Below the pieces are notes generated by a model. The model was not told where the DNA came from, did no database searches, and saw only the letters and a program-made list of their open reading frames with translations. A program made the translations under genes and the position numbers. DNA of 64,000 nt from the NCBI RefSeq assembly GCF_037201915.1, contig NZ_CP147505.1:1922001-1986000 (forward strand), given 5' to 3'. Origin of the DNA: Haloplanus sp. CK5-1. GTDB taxonomy: Archaea > Halobacteriota > Halobacteria > Halobacteriales > Haloferacaceae. How positions within the stretch are numbered: position 1 is the first letter of the stretch; the number at the start of each line of letters is the position of its first letter. Shown here in pieces: positions 2,716-9,914 of this stretch.

Positions 2716-3577
2716 GTGTCTCAAAGCCATCTGTCGTATGAAAGATGCCGTCGTGGATGATGACTGCCTCCAGATCCTCCCACTCCGATGCTAATTCGCG
2801 TGCCTTAGCAAGTGGGAGTGCCGCGAGGGTCGTCGCCAGGGCGTCCGCTTCCATACAGTCTCGGCGCGCCACGACGGTGACCGATTCATGTCGAGAGCCG
2901 AGCGATTCGGTGGTCGGGTCGTAGACGTGGTCAGCACCGTTTCGCGACCGTCGGTATCCGCCGGATGTTGCGACGTACCAGTCCGTGTCGAGGACCTTCA
3001 GCGGTGTGTCGTCACCGTACGGGCTCTCGATGGCGACCGGTCCAGTCGGTGGAGACATATCCCCACCACCACTGACGAACCCACGTCGGCCGAGTCCCGT
3101 AAGCGTCTCGGCGGTTCGATCCACGATGTATCCCTTGGCGAGGCCATTGAGGTCAAGTTCGACGTCGGTGGTGACGCGGGACCCACTGACTCGGACGGTT
3201 CCGGTATCGAAACTTGTTGCTGGTATTTCACTGTCACCGCGCAGGAAGGCTTTGAGATCCTGTTCGACGCGGCCCTGATGGATATCAAACACCCCGTCGG
3301 TCCGGTCGTTGTATTCGAGCCCACGGCGGACGATACGGGCGACGTGTTCGTTCTTGACCTCCCCTTCACGATTGAGCTGGCTGACGGCACTCGCCGCATC
3401 GAAGGCATTCAGTTGCGCTTCGAGTGACTCAACTGTTTCTCGAGCCGCAGTCACCGCAGCGTCGGCCCGGACACCCGCCGCTTGGATCCGAAACGTTGTA
3501 TCACAACACTCGAAGTTGCAGCGGGTGTTCCCGAGTCGTTCGTAGACCGATGCGATTGATTCGATCATCTCGCTCAC
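2699..3577 (-). CDS. apbE: ApbE-family FAD:protein FMN transferase
   Basis: This 292-residue protein has the ApbE hallmarks: an AFDAASAVSQLN segment near residue 58, DLNGLAKGYIVD (the D-L-x-G-x-A-K-G flavin/metal site), SGGGDMS, and HVYDPTTE (the HxxDPxT site). The family transfers FMN from FAD to threonines of extracytoplasmic FMN-binding proteins, or binds flavin itself. I see no signal peptide, and no neighbouring protein contains the usual (S/T)GA(S/T) acceptor motif, so the acceptor is unknown. The gene overlaps the upstream acidic-repeat gene (ATGA) and the downstream small gene, so all four minus-strand genes form one tightly coupled operon. Confidence 0.8.
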   Translation of the reverse strand: MSEMIESIASVYERLGNTRCNFECCDTTFRIQAAGVRADAAVTAARETVESLEAQLNAFDAASAVSQLNREGEVKNEHVARIVRRGLEYNDRTDGVFDIHQGRVEQDLKAFLRGDSEIPATSFDTGTVRVSGSRVTTDVELDLNGLAKGYIVDRTAETLTGLGRRGFVSGGGDMSPPTGPVAIESPYGDDTPLKVLDTDWYVATSGGYRRSRNGADHVYDPTTESLGSRHESVTVVARRDCMEADALATTLAALPLAKARELASEWEDLEAVIIHDGIFHTTDGFETHVLDA

Positions 3578-4005
3578 TCGTGTTCTTCGTGTTCTTCATA
3601 CTCTTCGTTCTCTTCGTGTTCTTCATACTCTTCGTTCTCTTCGTGTTCTTCATACTCTTCGTCTTCCTCTTCGTTCTCTTCGTGTTCTTCATACTCTTCG
3701 TCTTCCTCTTCGTTCTCTTCGTGTTCTTCATACTCTTCGTCTTCCTCTTCGTTCTCTTCGTGTTCTTCATCTTCGTAGCCAGACTGAGTCTGAACTTCAG
3801 GGGTGAAGTTTTGGTTTGGCGTCGGAGCATCGGCAGCGACCTGTTGTGATGCATCCGATGCGGTTGCGCTGGCTGAGGAAGTCTGGTCGCCACTCCGGGC
3901 GAGGCCATCACCGGGCATAGCAAGGGCACCGGCGATGCAAGCCGTGAGGAGCGCACCGACGAGCGTGAAGGCGACGAGCTTGTTATTTGAGATCGGGATA
4001 CGCAT
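3574..4005 (-). CDS. Exported glutamate-rich tandem-repeat protein
   Basis: This protein of about 143 residues has an N-terminal export signal (hydrophobic LVAFTLVGALLTACIAGALA, with a possible lipobox-like cysteine), a Ser/Ala/Thr-rich linker, and a C-terminal half that is almost only Glu with Asp, Asn, His and Tyr in repeats of EHEENEEEDEEYE (three 13-residue units), then shorter EHEENEEYE units. I prefer the ATG at 4005; a GTG at 4017 is also open. The tail is predicted to be disordered and strongly anionic, with regular His and Tyr, and could bind cations or iron outside the cell. It is the first gene of the ApbE/diheme cytochrome operon. No family was recognised. Confidence 0.65.
   Translation of the reverse strand: MRIPISNNKLVAFTLVGALLTACIAGALAMPGDGLARSGDQTSSASATASDASQQVAADAPTPNQNFTPEVQTQSGYEDEEHEENEEEDEEYEEHEENEEEDEEYEEHEENEEEDEEYEEHEENEEYEEHEENEEYEEHEEHE
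3578..3774 (-). repeat. In-frame coding tandem repeats (39-bp and 27-bp units)
   Basis: Pyrimidine-rich on the plus strand, this stretch is a direct tandem array inside the acidic-repeat gene. It has three units of 39 bp (13 codons), then two of 27 bp (9 codons) and a partial unit. The 27-bp unit equals the 39-bp unit minus four codons, so the array probably grows and shrinks by slippage in multiples of three. Confidence 0.85.
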
Positions 4006-4356
4006 AATCAGCTGCACCCCGTGTTAGAATTGCTATCTTCGACGTGTCGGTCGTTGCGTTCTGCCATTGCAAATAGGGGATGGAGACTGTCTCATTAAGC
4101 CGTTCGCGTCCAACCTTCGAATCTTCGTACAGCTATCGAATCGATTCCGAGCGTGAGGTGAGTAGTTAAATATATTTGAAAGCTTCCCACGTTCTACCTA
4201 TCCAGATCTTGTCAGTACTCGCGTGCAAGATATAGAGCGCGTGTCGGTCACCCCAACTACTGCGAGTTCCACTTGGGCGGAAGGCACCAGCACCAGCAGC
4301 CAGTAATGACGGATAGAACACATAAAGTTTAATTCTCACATATAGAATGCCGTATT
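4006..4356. other. Intergenic region between divergent genes, no gene seen
   Basis: This stretch of about 350 bp separates the minus-strand ApbE operon from the plus-strand nuclease-like gene. I see no credible ORF or RNA gene. It contains an AT-rich patch near 4165-4180 (TTAAATATATTTGAAA) and a TATA-like GTTTAAT near 4327. Promoters for both directions are expected here. Confidence 0.6.
4327..4333 (+). promoter_or_regulatory. TATA-like element for the 4357 gene
   Basis: GTTTAAT lies about 27 bp upstream of the ATG at 4357, the spacing expected for a leaderless haloarchaeal transcript. No ribosome-binding site precedes the ATG, which agrees with leaderless initiation. Confidence 0.45.
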
Positions 4357-5544
4357 ATGGGTGCTACGTCTGAAATTTTTCGACATATTGATAATGAAGA
4401 GTCGTTCAACGATTTTTTCGCTGGTCTTGTTTCGACAGCCCTTGATAATGGTCCCACCGTGCTGAATGAGATCCACGAGGGGTTTCAATTCAGTAGCCAA
4501 GCAGCTGTTGTTGGTACACAGCGAAATGGTTATGGAAACCACATATCTGCGAATGAATCTAACAGAACCCTGGATTGGGTCATTGAAGACGACGAGCTTT
4601 TGATCGGGTACGAATCGAAACGCGGCAAAGATGTCCCGAAAGACTCACAATTGCGTGAGGAACTCCGGAAGCTAAACGCGAACAGCAATACGGGGCAACA
4701 ACCAGTTTTGTTCGTATTCACCGACCACATGACCGAGCCACGGCTTCTGGACGACGACTCAATTCGGTGGCTCAGTTGGTACGATGTGGCGGACCGGATT
4801 TTGACTATTAACACAGACGATCCTGCAATCAAATTACTCCAAACAATGTTCGAAGAAACTGACTACGATGGGTTTAGCGGCTTCACTACGTTTGAACAAT
4901 CACCACAATGGCTCGTCCGCCATGACACCGAATTTGTCAACATGGCGTTCGAACTCGACAGACACTTGGACGGAGTAAAGCTCTATACAGCGCAAGGTTC
5001 CGTTGATGCTGATGCCTATACCTCACGAAGTATCGATCTGCTTCGCAGGAAAGATTACATCAGTGCTAATCATGCCTATCTAACTGCGCATTATCACCCG
5101 ACCGGTTTGGCACAGGCTGTGCAAAATAACTATCGTATAAGTGTCCTTGTCCCAGCTATGAGCAATGATATATTTCTCTGTTTAGACATGAACGGTAGGA
5201 AGAATAATGAGGTGCAGGAATTTGTCAAAGAGAATTCCCAACAACTCATCACACTGGTTAATAATTATGATTTAACAGTCAAAACATCTTATAATAGTTT
5301 CAATAATCCCGACCATGAGTTGTTGGAGTACGATAGTGAAGATGAGTTAGAAATGATTTTCCAAAAGAAATGTGGAGAAAGCAATTGGAAGCGGCTCCTA
5401 TTTGGGTGGGACATTGCAGCTAAGCAACCGCCGAAAGAGATTGTTCGAGAATGTGTGTCTCGAATTCACGAACTTAATGACGTGTTTTTCGAGTCCTCAG
5501 ACTATTTTGATAGCAATCAACTGCCAGTTTCAAAACCTGAGTGA
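4357..5544 (+). CDS. Lower-G+C protein with PD-(D/E)XK nuclease-like motif, uncharacterised
   Basis: This 395-residue protein has base composition clearly lower in G+C than its neighbours, suggesting recent transfer. Residues about 70-95 read TLDWVIEDDELLIGYESKRG, a D...(E)xK arrangement after a beta-hairpin, as in PD-(D/E)XK restriction-endonuclease-like folds. Downstream helices could complete such a fold, and the C-terminal 200 residues are unfamiliar. Upstream is a TATA-like box and downstream begins an ISH3 element. The setting (isolated, compositionally odd, next to IS elements) is typical of solitary defence or mobile-element cargo genes. I do not recognise the family; a nuclease role is inference from the motif. 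Confidence 0.6.
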   Translation: MGATSEIFRHIDNEESFNDFFAGLVSTALDNGPTVLNEIHEGFQFSSQAAVVGTQRNGYGNHISANESNRTLDWVIEDDELLIGYESKRGKDVPKDSQLREELRKLNANSNTGQQPVLFVFTDHMTEPRLLDDDSIRWLSWYDVADRILTINTDDPAIKLLQTMFEETDYDGFSGFTTFEQSPQWLVRHDTEFVNMAFELDRHLDGVKLYTAQGSVDADAYTSRSIDLLRRKDYISANHAYLTAHYHPTGLAQAVQNNYRISVLVPAMSNDIFLCLDMNGRKNNEVQEFVKENSQQLITLVNNYDLTVKTSYNSFNNPDHELLEYDSEDELEMIFQKKCGESNWKRLLFGWDIAAKQPPKEIVRECVSRIHELNDVFFESSDYFDSNQLPVSKPE

Positions 5545-5662
5545 CACAGACCTACGTGAGTAACCGATTCAGAGGTCATCAGGCGAAACAAACGAGAGGT
5601 CAGTGCTGACTTCATCCTCTATATCTTGCACTGCTCTCTGTAATCATTTCCATACCAATACT

Positions 5663-5678
5663 CAGTACCTCACAAAGC
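5663..5678. repeat. ISH3 element left terminal inverted repeat
   Basis: CAGTACCTCACAAAGC is identical to the reverse complement of 7049-7064. It is preceded by the target duplication ATACT. Confidence 0.9.
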
Positions 5679-5703
5679 CGGTTAGTTAGAACGTCTGCTT
5701 GCT

Positions 5704-6879
5704 GTGAATGTGACCAAACACCAGCAGCAAGCAGACAGTAAACTCCACGAAGACCAGATCCTTAACTTCCTCGTCAACCGGCTTGACGAGGAAGTTTCTC
5801 TGAACCTCGCCAACAACGCTGAAATCGGTACAGAGGACATCCATGAGGTCCTCGTCGGCGCAACCGCCGACGGGACCTCGATCTCGACGCTGTGTAACTC
5901 TAGTGAGGACTCGCCATCGGCGAACACGGTCCTCTACCACCTCCGGACGAAGTTCGAGCCGGAACGGCTCGAACGAGTCGCTAACACGCTCCTTCGACGA
6001 GACATCGTCGAACTACTCCCCGAGCAGGTGGAGGTCTGCGCAGACCTCCACCTGCGGCCCTACTACGGTGATGAAGACGACACGGAGAACCTCTATCACT
6101 CGGAAGCCAAGCGTGGAACCACCGCGTTCCACGCCTATGCCACGCTCTACGCGCGTGTAAAGAACAAACGCTACACGCTGGCGGTGCGCCGTCTGGAAGA
6201 CGGCGACACCGCCAGCAGCGTCCTCGCTGAGTTCTTCGGTGTCCTTGACGGCCTTGACACCGGGGTCAAGGCCGTCTATCTTGATCGCGGATTCTACGAC
6301 AGCAAGTGCCTCACGCTGCTTCAAGCGCATAACTACGCGTACGTGATCCCGATCATCCGGTGGGGGAAGACGATTCAGCAAGAGCTCTCGGAAGGGTGGA
6401 GTCGTGTCATTCAGCATGATCTGACAGGGAAACTCGACGGTCACAGCTGGACCGTCAATTTTCCCGTCTACATCGATTGCACGTACCTGAACGGGAAGTA
6501 CGACGACCACGGTGTGGCGCGTCACGGCTACGCCGCTGACGCGCCGTTCATCGAGACACCACGCGACGCTCGATACCACTATGCGAAACGGTTCGGTATC
6601 GAGTCGAGCTATCGGTTGTCCGAGCAAGCGATAGCGACGACAACGACACGAGACGCGACGGTGAGACTGCTGTACGTCGTGGTGAGTCTGCTGCTACAGA
6701 ACGCGTGGCGGTATCTCCACTATGAATACGTGGCGACGCCCCGCCGTGGCGGGCGTCGCCTCTGGTGGTGGCCGTACAAGGAATTCGTCAATATGGTTCG
6801 ACGGGCTGCGTGGACGGCCCTCGCGGTGCGTCGGGCCGTCCCCGCGAATCGACCACCAGACGACCGGTTCCACCGCTAA
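5704..6879 (+). CDS. ISH3-family DDE transposase
   Basis: This intact 391-residue transposase starts at a GTG. Candidate catalytic residues are Asp in VCADLHLR (about residue 113), Asp in VYLDRGFYDSK (about 198) and Glu in FGIESSYR (about 300), giving the DDE triad. The length is normal for the ISH3 family. The C-terminal segment is rich in Arg and Trp (GGRRLWWWPYKEF). Since the inverted repeats and target duplication are also intact, the element is probably competent to move. A perfect 30-bp palindrome lies within the coding sequence around the first catalytic Asp. Confidence 0.9.
   Translation: MNVTKHQQQADSKLHEDQILNFLVNRLDEEVSLNLANNAEIGTEDIHEVLVGATADGTSISTLCNSSEDSPSANTVLYHLRTKFEPERLERVANTLLRRDIVELLPEQVEVCADLHLRPYYGDEDDTENLYHSEAKRGTTAFHAYATLYARVKNKRYTLAVRRLEDGDTASSVLAEFFGVLDGLDTGVKAVYLDRGFYDSKCLTLLQAHNYAYVIPIIRWGKTIQQELSEGWSRVIQHDLTGKLDGHSWTVNFPVYIDCTYLNGKYDDHGVARHGYAADAPFIETPRDARYHYAKRFGIESSYRLSEQAIATTTTRDATVRLLYVVVSLLLQNAWRYLHYEYVATPRRGGRRLWWWPYKEFVNMVRRAAWTALAVRRAVPANRPPDDRFHR
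6025..6054. repeat. Perfect 30-bp palindrome inside the ISH3 transposase gene
   Basis: Each arm is 15 bp (CAGGTGGAGGTCTGC and its exact complement) with no loop. It encodes QVEVCADLHL, including the first catalytic Asp. It could form a strong mRNA hairpin or cruciform. Confidence 0.9.
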
Positions 6880-7048
6880 CCGCCGACCGAGCAAGTCAGC
6901 AGAGTGAGTGGCGACGCTGTCGCGTCGGCGGCTGACCGCCGCCGACAGCGACAGCTCTCCTTCGATCCGCCCGTAATTCTCTCGTCGAGACCGTCAGTAC
7001 AACTGCTCCGACACAGAACTTAGGCCGCAGAAACAGCTAGCTGTGGAT

Positions 7049-7064
7049 GCTTTGTGAGGTACTG
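7049..7064. repeat. ISH3 element right terminal inverted repeat
   Basis: GCTTTGTGAGGTACTG is the exact complement of the left end. It is followed by the second copy of ATACT at 7065-7069. Confidence 0.9.
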
Positions 7065-7705
7065 ATACTTCACAGCCGGATTGCACCGCGGCAAATCGGC
7101 TGTGACTGTTTCTATCGCACGCCAGATACTGAGGTTCTCTAACCGTCCGAGGGACAGCAAAGGCGCTGGCTGTGGCGACACTGTTCGCCTTGCAGAGACA
7201 GGAGGGATCCGATCCCATTGGTTTCACGACTTGCCGACGCGAGTCACTATTTTTCGCGCATCTCCACTAGTACCGCGACGCCGTCGATCGTCGGCACGTC
7301 ACTGGCGAGCAAACTCCGGTGGCGCTCGGCGATATCCAGAACCTCAGTATCCACCTGGTTGGGTGCGCTTGCGCGCTCACCGATGAGCGTGAAGGCCAAC
7401 TCACCGTCCGACTCTGGCGCGCCGGCGAGGCGGACGGCCGCGACGTCCTCGAGGGTGACGTGGTCCACCCCTTGTCGACGCGCCGGACCTTCAGGTGGAC
7501 GGAGTACACACCAGCGTGCACGGCGCCTGACCGGCCTGACTCTCTCGCCAACCGAGTAGCAGCCACAGAAACGAAGGGGGACGGAGCCCGTTTCGTAACG
7601 GGCATGGGGGTTAGGGGGGCGGGAGAAGGTGCCACGACACGTCAGATATTGCCTCTTCCACGAGAAAATCTGACACCTGTACTTGACTGATTTTCGTTAC
7701 GATAC
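7065..7705. other. Inter-IS stretch with gene debris only
   Basis: About 640 bp lies between the two insertion sequences. No intact gene is visible. The only coding-like signal is a frameshifted minus-strand remnant at roughly 7247-7530, listed separately. The rest shows no motif I recognise and is probably residue of genes eroded by IS activity. Confidence 0.5.
7247..7530 (-). pseudogene. Frameshifted remnant of an unknown gene
   Basis: Reading the minus strand, a coding-like segment (VYSVHLKVRRVDKG) runs to about 7473 and continues in another frame as VDHVTLEDVAAVRLAG up to a stop at 7247. The shift falls in a short G run (AAGGGGTGG), consistent with a single-base indel. The second part is about 73 residues with normal haloarchaeal acidic composition. 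No start region or family was recognised. The placement between two IS elements fits a decayed passenger gene. Confidence 0.35.
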
Positions 7706-8979
7706 CTCAGCTTTGCACGTTAGCGTCGGCGGTTGAGTGAACGAAGAGGTGGTCGATCTCTTCCATGAGGTCATCGACGCCTTGGTCATCATTGTCCCGA
7801 ACCCACGAAAGAAGGTTGTAGACGGCTTCTTTCATGGAATGTTCGAGGTACGCTCGAAGCGATGACGCCTTCGAGCGAACCGTCCCCAAGGCGCTCGACT
7901 CAGGATCAAGACGAACGAGACTGTAGGCAGCTATCAGAAGGAGCCAGCGCCGACTGGCACCTTCGTCGGTCTGCATCTCGCAGTCTCCCAAGCCGAGATC
8001 CTGCTTCGAATTCTCGACGAACGTCTCGATGCGCCACCGCATCTCGTAGGAGCGGATCACGTGCTGGGTCGGTGCGTCGATCTCGTTTGTAGCGAGGTCC
8101 TTGGTCGGATTCTCTTCGTCGTCTTCGTCGGTCTCTTTCTCGGCGATAACCAGCTTCACGTCTCCCAGTTGGGAGACGAGAAGCTTCTTCGTCCAGATGT
8201 GGTAGGTCTCGTCTTCGATGTCGCGTTCAGTCGTGTCGATGCGCTCGGCAAGCGTATCGACGCGGAGTTTTTCGCCGGCGTAAGTCACCTTCCGATTGCT
8301 CCGGAGCGGGCCGACCCAGTCCTTGCCGTAGGATTCGATGTGGTCAGGAAGGCCAGAATCGTGGGCGAACCACGAGCCGAAGAGGTAGGTGTGCCTGTGG
8401 ACACCTACCTCTTCTTCGAGTTTCATGACAATCTCGCGGGCGAGATCGCACTTGGTATCGTGGTCATCGTCCTCGTCGTCTTGCTGTTCGTAGAGGCGGA
8501 AGGTGAGCGGGTAGGCGGTTTTGTCGTCAGGGTAGAAGGCGTAGATGAGGTCTTGCCCCCAGACAGTGTCATCCTCGGCGTGATCGTAGAACTGACCGAC
8601 GCCGGGGACTCCGTCCCGGCTTTCTCCGTGATCGTGTCGTCGAGGATGATGTAGCCGTCCTTCGACCAGCGCGTTTCACCGTGTTTCTGGAGTTCTTCGA
8701 GGCGTTCGTGGTTGAATTGTTGCTCGTCCCAGTTGTACTCGGTGAGGAACTTGTTGAGAGCACGTTTGCCGTTGGCGGGAAGGACTTCGCGTGCGATACC
8801 CGCCACGGTCTTGTTGCTGGCCGCAACAAGACCTGTGGCGTAGGTTTTCGCGTGACGGCGTTGTGCCGGTGACAGCGAGTCGAACTCGTCGAACACGCGC
8901 GTACACGACAAGGAATCCGTGATCGGCATCATTCGTCCTTGCCACTGCCTACGCTCCTACTTCAACGTGCAAAGCTGAG
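7706..8979 (-). mobile_element. IS701-like insertion sequence, transposase frameshifted
   Basis: Perfect 16-bp inverted repeats mark the ends: CTCAGCTTTGCACGTT at 7706-7721 and its complement at 8964-8979. The element is 1274 bp, and the transposase stop codon lies within the 7706 end. I see no convincing direct target duplication at the flanks. Because its transposase is broken, the copy is probably non-autonomous but still has mobilisable ends. Confidence 0.8.
7707..8932 (-). pseudogene. IS701-family-like transposase, single-base frameshift
   Basis: The N-terminal part (from 8932) reads through KDGYIILDDTITEKAG, containing the catalytic Asp region. It then loses frame at GCCGGGACGG near 8615, where one missing G explains the shift. 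In the corrected frame the protein continues VPGVGQFYDHAEDDTVWGQD and joins the downstream frame containing EMRWRIETFVENSKQDLG with the catalytic Glu. The corrected length is about 408 residues, usual for this family. Apart from this one base, the gene appears full length, so inactivation is recent. Family assignment to IS701 rests on motif resemblance (NKFLTEYNWDEQ, ILDDT) and is moderately sure. Confidence 0.8.
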
Positions 8980-9014
8980 CACATTTCTGACTTCGTTATT
9001 GAGCAGCTGGCACA

Positions 9015-9102
9015 ACTATAGTAGCGTTTGTAACTGTCCGCACACCTGATCGAACGCTGTCATGCGATCAGGTGTGTGATGACTTACAAAGGCTACTATA
9101 GT
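9015..9102. mobile_element. 88-bp palindromic MITE-like element
   Basis: The ends are perfect 11-bp inverted repeats (ACTATAGTAGC at 9015-9025 and GCTACTATAGT at 9092-9102). Inside are further matching arms (GTTTGTAA/TTACAAAG and CACACCTGATCG/CGATCAGGTGTG), so nearly the whole element folds into one hairpin. It has no coding capacity. This is the build of a miniature inverted-repeat transposable element mobilised in trans by an unidentified transposase. Confidence 0.75.
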
Positions 9103-9203
9103 CTCTCTCTGTTTGCCCCCGCGTACGAAACGATTCGACGGTTGGACGACGATTCGATAGATGGACGCGAACGAACTTTTCTGACGTGTATCTACGTGCT
9201 TCT

Positions 9204-9914
9204 ATGCAGACCCGTTTACGGCAAGCAGGACTGGTTGTTGTACTTCTTCTGGTCGTTAGTGGAGTCGGCACTGTTCAAGCGGGAGCATCGCCAGTAACTG
9301 ATGAACATGCAGCTGTGACAAGCATCAGCCCATCGGAACAGTCGTTTTCACTCGCTGAGGACGCGAATGGAGTGGATGATGCGGAAGAGGACGGTGAAGA
9401 TATAGAAGATTCGGAAGAAGACGAGGAAGGGGCTAGTCTGATTGGAGACTGGTGGGGCCTCGGTGGCGAAGTGAGTGAAGCCCCATACATCGGTGTGGTT
9501 GAAGTTGGCGGTGTCCTTCTCGTCGTCGGTGTCCTCGGGTACAGTCTTGCAAAGAGAAAGCAATTGCTGCCGGTGCGATACCGTCGATATCAGTTACAAA
9601 CACACCAGTGGATTGTTCTGATCGGGACGGCACTAACGCTGCCGCACTTCATTGCCGTCGAAGAGTGGGAAGGACTCGGTCTCACGGTTGCTGTATTACT
9701 TGGTATAGAGGTTGCAAGTGGCCTGTACGGTCGATATCTGCATCGACATGTTGTCCGGCTTGGACGAGGAAATGAGACACCGTCAGTCGTTGGCCGTCTG
9801 CTGACCGTTACCAAAGAGACTCTCTTTTCACGATGGCGACGAGTGCACGTCTTGCTAACTGTTGTCACTGCTATCGTCCTCGTACTCCACATTATCACGG
9901 CAATCGGTGACTGA
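9204..9914 (+). CDS. Exported acidic-linker diheme b-type membrane protein
   Basis: This 236-residue protein has a signal peptide (AGLVVVLLLVVSGVGTVQAGA), an acidic disordered linker (repeated EED/EDIEDSEEDEE), a transmembrane helix near residues 92-110 and a C-terminal helical bundle. Two helices carry histidine pairs spaced 14 apart: HQWIVLIGTALTLPH and HVLLTVVTAIVLVLH, with further His in YLHRHVV. This is a diheme b cytochrome pattern like that of the protein at 1886-2428, and its acidic linker echoes the exported Glu-rich protein at 3574. I chose the ATG at 9204, which places the signal peptide at the N-terminus. It may belong functionally to the ApbE operon, now separated from it by IS elements. 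Confidence 0.65.
   Translation: MQTRLRQAGLVVVLLLVVSGVGTVQAGASPVTDEHAAVTSISPSEQSFSLAEDANGVDDAEEDGEDIEDSEEDEEGASLIGDWWGLGGEVSEAPYIGVVEVGGVLLVVGVLGYSLAKRKQLLPVRYRRYQLQTHQWIVLIGTALTLPHFIAVEEWEGLGLTVAVLLGIEVASGLYGRYLHRHVVRLGRGNETPSVVGRLLTVTKETLFSRWRRVHVLLTVVTAIVLVLHIITAIGD

Follow-up and report, generated by a model that had tools for sequence, protein, structure and literature searches.

A putative single-protein restriction-type endonuclease as cargo of a small mobile insertion cassette in Haloplanus sp. CK5-1

In the 64,000 nucleotides of the Haloplanus sp. CK5-1 genome analysed here (contig NZ_CP147505.1, positions 1,922,001 to 1,986,000; referred to as the window), one intact gene of foreign composition raises two questions, namely what its product does and by which route it arrived. 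The reading that we consider just about probable is that it encodes a single-protein, methylase-less restriction-type endonuclease directed against incoming DNA and shuttled by a haloarchaeal mobile insertion cassette; its putative defence function, taken by itself, is held with moderate confidence.

The open reading frame starts with ATG and belongs to a single-contig genome of 3.24 Mb. Its G+C content is 0.443 (GC3 0.46) against 0.659 for the whole window, and none of 315 stretches of 1188 bp taken across the window in steps of 200 is as low, which bears out the original prediction of a foreign, lower-G+C gene. It is also solitary and beside an insertion sequence, as had been claimed: on its 5' side lies a low-complexity frame on the opposite strand (3574-4017, minus), on its 3' side an ISH3 transposase (NF033541, E 2.8e-114), and no methylase-like frame was seen adjoining it in the window. 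By eye, the 60 bases preceding the ATG contain no obvious ribosome-binding site and show an AT-rich stretch at a distance plausible for a TATA element. The neighbouring minus-strand frame encodes a secreted-looking protein with a long acidic repeat of the EEHEENEE type, and alignment to congeners suggests that this repeat differs in length. The features of the gene itself are as follows:

4357 to 5544, plus strand: cargo gene for a protein of 395 aa, with a predicted N-terminal PD-(D/E)XK domain (about residues 10-165) and a predicted C-terminal YktB/DUF1054-like domain (about residues 180-390)
4396 to 4398, plus strand: codon of E14, invariant in 14 aligned sequences
4573 to 4653, plus strand: codons for D73, E86-x-K88 and Q98-L99, predicted to be active-site residues and invariant in 14 aligned sequences

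The N-terminal domain had been proposed to hold a PD-(D/E)XK core on the strength of a D...ESK arrangement. In an alignment of the window protein with 13 relatives (18-39% identity to it), E14, D73, D78, E86, K88, Q98, L99 and E102 are invariant in all 14 sequences, and because its residues are among these, the motif at residues 72-90 is, as judged from the alignment, a conserved active-site pattern and not a chance one. A full-length model built from six sequences (pLDDT 72, pTM 0.71) places a helix at 14-30, strands at 50-54, 74-77 and 81-87, a helix at 96-109 and a strand at 115-122, the predicted order thus being the alpha-beta-beta-beta-alpha-beta core of the PD-(D/E)XK nuclease superfamily. 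A PD-(D/E)XK nuclease from a phage heads the matches in a viral structure library (probability 1.00, E 1.0e-5), and a Foldseek search of the PDB with the full model gave no match below E 0.001. Structural comparison of residues 3-155 or so with VIA returned Can2 (Z 7.6, rmsd 3.0 over 115 residues), N.BspD6I (7.3), VC1899 (7.1), McrC (6.7) and AF1548 (6.7), and also Card1, Cdn1, the Avs4 nuclease, EndoMS (6.1) and a Holliday-junction enzyme (5.3), all of them below the Z of 8 under which, by the tool's own caution, a match may reflect just a common arrangement; these low values count against the restriction-nuclease reading. Insufficient alone, they become decisive together with the invariant residues, and weak matches to Pfam PDDEXK_4 (PF14281) in four of the 14 family members, the best at E 5.1e-6 and the window protein not among them, point the same way. 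The prediction of a PD-(D/E)XK nuclease fold with all expected catalytic residues is therefore well supported. Neither a fold lacking that core nor a match to a housekeeping family, both named beforehand as outcomes that would speak against it, was found.

The C-terminal half had been described as unfamiliar. That a second domain is present holds, but its fold is a known one: residues 172-395, folded alone (pLDDT 77.8, pTM 0.80), match 2a8e best in VIA (Z 11.5, rmsd 3.9 over 180), then 3mqz (DUF1054; 9.5) and 1yb3 (8.5), the fourth row falling to 7.1, and the two best Foldseek rows are 3mqz and 2a8e (E 0.03 and 0.04). The database titles give 2a8e as B. subtilis Q45498 and 1yb3 as Pfu-178653-001, which we take to be YktB and PF0168, respectively. 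On these models, the C-terminal half carries the YktB/DUF1054 fold, that of a family of unknown function. We know of no role of YktB/DUF1054 in DNA recognition, which counts against the restriction-nuclease reading, as does the outcome for a McrB-type DNA-binding domain, a candidate identity rejected at a Z of only about 5.5 (rmsd 4.2 over 121). A literature search for DUF1054 and YktB found no functional study; DUF1054 is named once, for a phage frame at E 0.43 (PMC1524935).

As regards the family to which the whole protein belongs, the window protein matches no family in Pfam (E up to 1), PADLOC, NCBIfam or PHROGs, another point against restriction, and sequence searches of PDB sequences, phage records and viral contigs with it found nothing. 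A profile of the family drew 14 chance rows from PDB sequences, mostly ferritins, none of the 14 members matched NCBIfam, and DUF1054 is absent among the Pfam families that they do match. Searching defence families by HMM had been suggested as a check: the window protein failed to match in PADLOC, and distant relatives alone gave weak matches, mostly over the nuclease part, to the candidate-defence families PDC-M15A (2.6e-6) and PDC-S26 (7e-5), a weakness that likewise counts against the reading. As far as the available text of their description goes, PDC families are computed candidates for which experimental proof is mostly absent (PMC12988326). The annotation of one distant relative, encoded on a plasmid of Natrinema, names it a PD-(D/E)XK nuclease family protein.

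Relatives, one of which is WP_166035700.1 of Halorussus pelagicus, are thinly spread. A genome search placed them in 14 of 86 genera and, the own genome included, in 15 of the 391 genomes searched in the class; a profile search hit 25 of the order's 392 genomes, with ten near-full-profile, stop-free places in nine genomes (own included), and several broken copies occur in other genomes. None of the 11 other genomes of the genus has a relative. Such a distribution is not that of a housekeeping gene and, together with the foreign composition, it makes it highly improbable that a host nuclease for DNA repair or recombination, of the EndoMS or Hjc sort, was picked up accidentally, even though EndoMS and a Holliday-junction enzyme do appear among the VIA rows.

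The second question, that of arrival, is answered by the DNA on either side of the gene:

4178 to 4245, plus strand: cassette end A, 85% identical over 68 bp to a second cassette; its outermost tip is unrecognisable in the window
4223 to 4237, plus strand: 15-bp core of end A, repeated perfectly in inverted orientation at 5617-5631
5592 to 5662, minus strand: inner portion of end B, including its 15-bp core (5617-5631); 85% over 52 bp to the second cassette
5663 to 7064, plus strand: ISH3 element, with transposase at 5704-6879, inverted ends and a 5-bp duplication
7065 to 7122, minus strand: outer part of cassette end B with the terminal-repeat tip; aligned with two intact B ends at 89% (37 bp) and 82% (55 bp)
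about 4161 to 8980, no strand: stretch missing at the matching place in three congeners, made up of the cassette, ISH3, 583 bp and a DDE insertion sequence

The second cassette lies at 42.7-44.9 kb of the same genome and has the same end arrangement around different genes; a whole-genome search related end A to it at E 5.5e-16 and end B to its other end at E 5.2e-9. The original prediction missed that the gene is cargo of a cassette family with recurring ends, and also that ISH3 is a later insertion into one of these: end B, as known from intact copies elsewhere, resumes past the element at 7069-7122, and the target duplication ATACT stands on both sides (5658-5662 and 7065-7069). The 15-bp inverted pair is not an end of ISH3, which begins 32 bp further on. 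The window holds 19 perfect 15-base inverted pairs at comparable spacing, of which one is the cassette pair; among the other 18, two mark the termini of insertion sequences, namely ISH3 and the DDE element, and 16 are G+C-rich. No target duplication is recognisable at the window cassette, a point against the preferred reading. A stretch of 583 bp (7123-7705) separates end B from the DDE element, and an Rfam search of 3500-9500 returned three rows, all far under gathering scores.

Since end B is split by ISH3 and the tip of end A has decayed, the window cassette is probably no longer mobile as a unit, its gene remaining intact. Beyond it, the DDE insertion sequence (7706-8980) has inverted ends TCAGCTTTGCACGTT and a transposase frame split into 7707-8426 and 8423-8932. 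Further on, an 86-bp palindromic repeat (9015-9102), present in many copies on both strands in this genome and in congeners, seems to have inserted separately from the cassette.

How common such ends are was assessed across the order, where end A occurs in 73 of 392 genomes and 37 of 95 genera (E up to 1e-4, two candidates per genome at most being scored), with at least 60 of its 83 bases aligned in 47 genomes as counted from the rows listed. End B follows within 1.5 kb of cargo-side sequence at 12 of 35 end-A loci examined and is lacking there at 23. A search of phage records with end B gave no match. The units in the own genome and the 12 with paired ends carry the following cargos:

Own genome, 42 kb: a 195-aa frame and an HTH protein
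Own genome, 641 kb: a response-regulator/GAF/PAS/histidine kinase of 1028 aa
Own genome, 2.02 Mb: a MazE/MazF pair, with ends partly recognisable (E 7e-4 and 0.004)
Paired ends, L165: Mrr-like endonuclease
Paired ends, L168: AspBHI-like endonuclease
Paired ends, L173: N6/N4 methylase
Paired ends, L121: HNH endonuclease
Paired ends, L153: PAS histidine kinase
Paired ends, L146: DUF7344
Paired ends, L152: proteasome-like protein
Paired ends, L164 and L171: unmatched proteins of 185 and 181 aa
Paired ends, L159 and L123: short frames
Paired ends, L172: no cargo

On longer stretches, both ends were confirmed for the AspBHI-like, kinase and Mrr-like units (E 2e-16 to 2e-24), and the methylase unit has a weak end B, in part only (E 5e-6). 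A 1.6-kb cassette (L174 1245-2871) carries nothing but a modification-dependent restriction endonuclease of AspBHI-like type, with matches to RE_AspBHI_N (E 6.5e-60) and Mrr_cat. Immediately beyond the Mrr-like cassette (L177 2942-4001), a second frame has, by eye, a start like that of Mrr-type endonucleases. The endonucleases, the methylase and the MazE/MazF pair among the cargos speak for a restriction nuclease in the window. Cargos other than defence genes are numerous, including sensor kinases, HTH and proteasome-like proteins and small unknown frames, which counts against reading the window gene as a restriction nuclease. Ends A and B were also considered as promoter and terminator of one gene, an idea rejected since the cargo runs from A to B in some units and from B to A in others.

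Transposition is recorded by clean target duplications of 8-9 bp at three units, namely the own-genome HTH unit (GACAAATGA), the unit with the proteasome-like protein (ATACTCTCA) and the Mrr-like unit (8 bp, ACCTACGC). Of 12 units scored, these three are joined by four occupants of one plasmid site, which share 7 bp, the remaining five having 3-6 bp, counted as no duplication; two further units were not scorable, and by eye the AspBHI-like and kinase units show no clean duplication. The cassette and its transposition are established by the ends common to several units, by the empty sites and by the duplicated targets at other units, and that the window gene is cargo of a small mobile insertion cassette with ends A and B is accordingly well supported. 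The converse, in which the gene would be a decaying, functionless passenger and A and B mere intergenic repeats of a common type, could appeal to the 15-bp core, which occurs singly at 16 places elsewhere in the genome (up to 2 mismatches; control 4), to the interruption of end B and to the broken state of several relatives. Against this stand the pairing of the long ends, the duplications at three units and a reading frame that is intact and keeps every invariant residue, so that such an accident is very improbable, hardly less so than a captured repair enzyme.

The agent of movement is presumably an insertion sequence of the own genome that encodes a DDE transposase of 330 aa and would mobilise the cassettes in trans, its tips (GAGGGTGTCATAGAAC) being similar to theirs (GAGCGTGTCATAGAAA). 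ISH2 was considered as parent of the ends, and no Halobacterium record in the plasmid collection matched them at E 0.01. Other elements adjoin the 15-bp core: an IS-like element with a 588-aa frame does so at three loci (L109 10793; L110 3425; L111 3784, where the frame is shortened), as does another shared stretch in two copies (L112, L113); other insertion sequences seem to prefer the core as their target.

At the plasmid site mentioned above, four cargos lie between the same ends (L132 928-3539, L134 908-1493, L141 3522-5048 and L146 1501-2842), the backbone outside being constant and the cargo variable. Haloplanus rubicundus has a CARF-type regulator (DUF6293) and a winged-helix gene there, Haloplanus HW8-1 and Halorientalis marina a 114-aa frame (the DNA of Halobellus DFY28 is nearly identical), one genome (G135) an HNH endonuclease with homing-endonuclease-associated repeats and another (G217) DUF7344. 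Between H. rubicundus and HW8-1, similarity holds at 98% as far as the inner edge of B, is absent across the cargo and resumes at 83% from the inner edge of A; with the breakpoints at these edges, the cargo has thus been replaced between fixed ends, most simply via recombination in the ends. Exchange of this kind, and the HNH protein at the same site, would suit a selfish, homing-type nuclease, which cuts cassettes or sites without the cargo so that repair copies the cargo in, to the benefit of the cassette and not of the host. We regard this as decidedly unlikely for the window gene, given that most cargos are not nucleases, that no recognition site is known and that spread to new sites is already explained by transposition with target duplications.

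The family of the window gene is not tied to the cassette vehicle, which counts against the preferred reading, for among 14 distinct loci of other relatives an end A or B at low E-value lies beside only one (L054), a broken copy (L062) not being counted. That locus holds the closest relative (39%), with end B (E 2.6e-9) 2.8 kb from the gene, an integrase between the two and, 3.4 kb downstream of the relative, a methylase 83% identical to the methylase carried by a cassette (L173). Integrases lie close to two other relatives (L056, L057), and plasmids carry two more (L017, L018). Among 20 neighbouring proteins picked by eye and scanned, a tally that has no background rate, were GmrSD (HEC-06, E 6.6e-43), a McrB-like EVE-AAA protein, KAP, HATPase, HNH and HSDR_N proteins and a second PDDEXK_4 protein. 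Such company speaks for the restriction-nuclease reading; this manner of selection, and a relative whose neighbours are, by eye, housekeeping genes (L022), count against the restriction-nuclease reading. Near another relative (L058 7668-8447, minus strand) lies a DpdA-like protein, of the kind associated with 7-deazaguanine in DNA (E 1.9e-15).

KAP and HATPase proteins close to some relatives, a lone gene without a methylase and the presence of the cyclic-oligonucleotide-activated effectors Can2, Card1 and Cdn1, as well as of the Avs4 nuclease, among the VIA rows would fit an abortive-infection effector, whose C-terminal domain senses infection through a viral protein or signal molecule while the nuclease destroys host and virus DNA or RNA. 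This is considered unlikely: in Pfam, no CARF or SAVED domain was matched by the window protein or the 14 family members, no cyclase or other signal maker lies beside the gene, and several VIA rows with similar Z are ordinary restriction enzymes. Restriction is preferred over abortive infection because sister cassettes of like size carry Mrr and AspBHI and no signal maker was seen, the margin between the two being modest. The gene arrived as cargo of a small non-autonomous element that is bounded by ends A and B and encodes no transposase itself; presumably a DDE transposase that acts on terminal repeats of related sequence moves it in trans. Under the preferred restriction reading, the N-terminal domain, whose fold and invariant residues suggest catalysis, would cut DNA, and the C-terminal YktB/DUF1054-like domain may license or target this cutting through recognition of a partner or of a feature found in foreign or modified DNA.

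More broadly, and only tentatively, haloarchaeal cassettes might prove to be widespread, exchangeable single-gene carriers in which solo restriction nucleases recur alongside a methylase and a toxin-antitoxin pair, with the window gene founding a solo-restriction family that has a YktB/DUF1054-like specificity domain. Were this true, the orphan YktB/DUF1054 fold would gain a first role and, as a nuclease-fused domain, its first functional context. Archaeal immunity is, in the available part of one account, poorly mapped, much of it consisting of single-gene candidates, many outside known defence islands (PMC12988326). The recognisable ends offer a handle for collecting such genes, anything between A and B in other haloarchaea being a candidate. 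Restriction genes are patchily distributed in Halobacteria, according to the accessible text of another study, and the cassette offers a physical cause for this pattern (PMC6471742). Literature searches, within the scope of those made, found no paper reporting such cassettes in haloarchaea and no nuclease fused to a YktB-like domain.

When compared with known systems, the closest likeness is to the mobile insertion cassettes (MIC) first described in Bacillus cereus with IS231 ends, as recounted in a paper that also reports a pair of mic elements on related plasmids, alike in their ends but not in what they contain (PMC3913671). MICs and the haloarchaeal cassettes have in common inverted-repeat ends, the absence of a transposase, ordinary genes as cargo, target duplication (here at three units other than the window cassette) and presumed mobilisation in trans; the haloarchaeal cassettes differ in their long, structured ends (about 80-115 bp), which share a 15-bp core, in their many cargos, several of them stand-alone restriction-type proteins, and in repeated exchange at one site. 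Haloarchaeal MITEs and ISH2-type elements are likewise transposase-free, bounded by terminal repeats and moved in trans. Of the five MITE families surveyed in Haloquadratum, according to the available text, four lack coding sequence and measure less than 500 bp, and a frame is present in one ISH2-type element, which is about 520 bp long (PMC3119063), whereas the cassettes carry whole genes, encoding up to 1028 aa. At the level of the protein, free-standing YktB/DUF1054 and PF0168 entries (2a8e, 3mqz, 1yb3), whose function is unknown, resemble the C-terminal domain in fold, with sequence similarity undetected, while in the window protein this domain is fused to a nuclease. Finally, the type IV enzymes Mrr, AspBHI/MspJI and McrBC resemble the window protein in combining PD-(D/E)XK with a second domain and doing without a methylase, and the cassette family also carries Mrr-like and AspBHI-like proteins; the window protein is set apart from them by its N-terminal nuclease, its unmatched sequence and a YktB-like domain in place of an SRA or McrB-type one.
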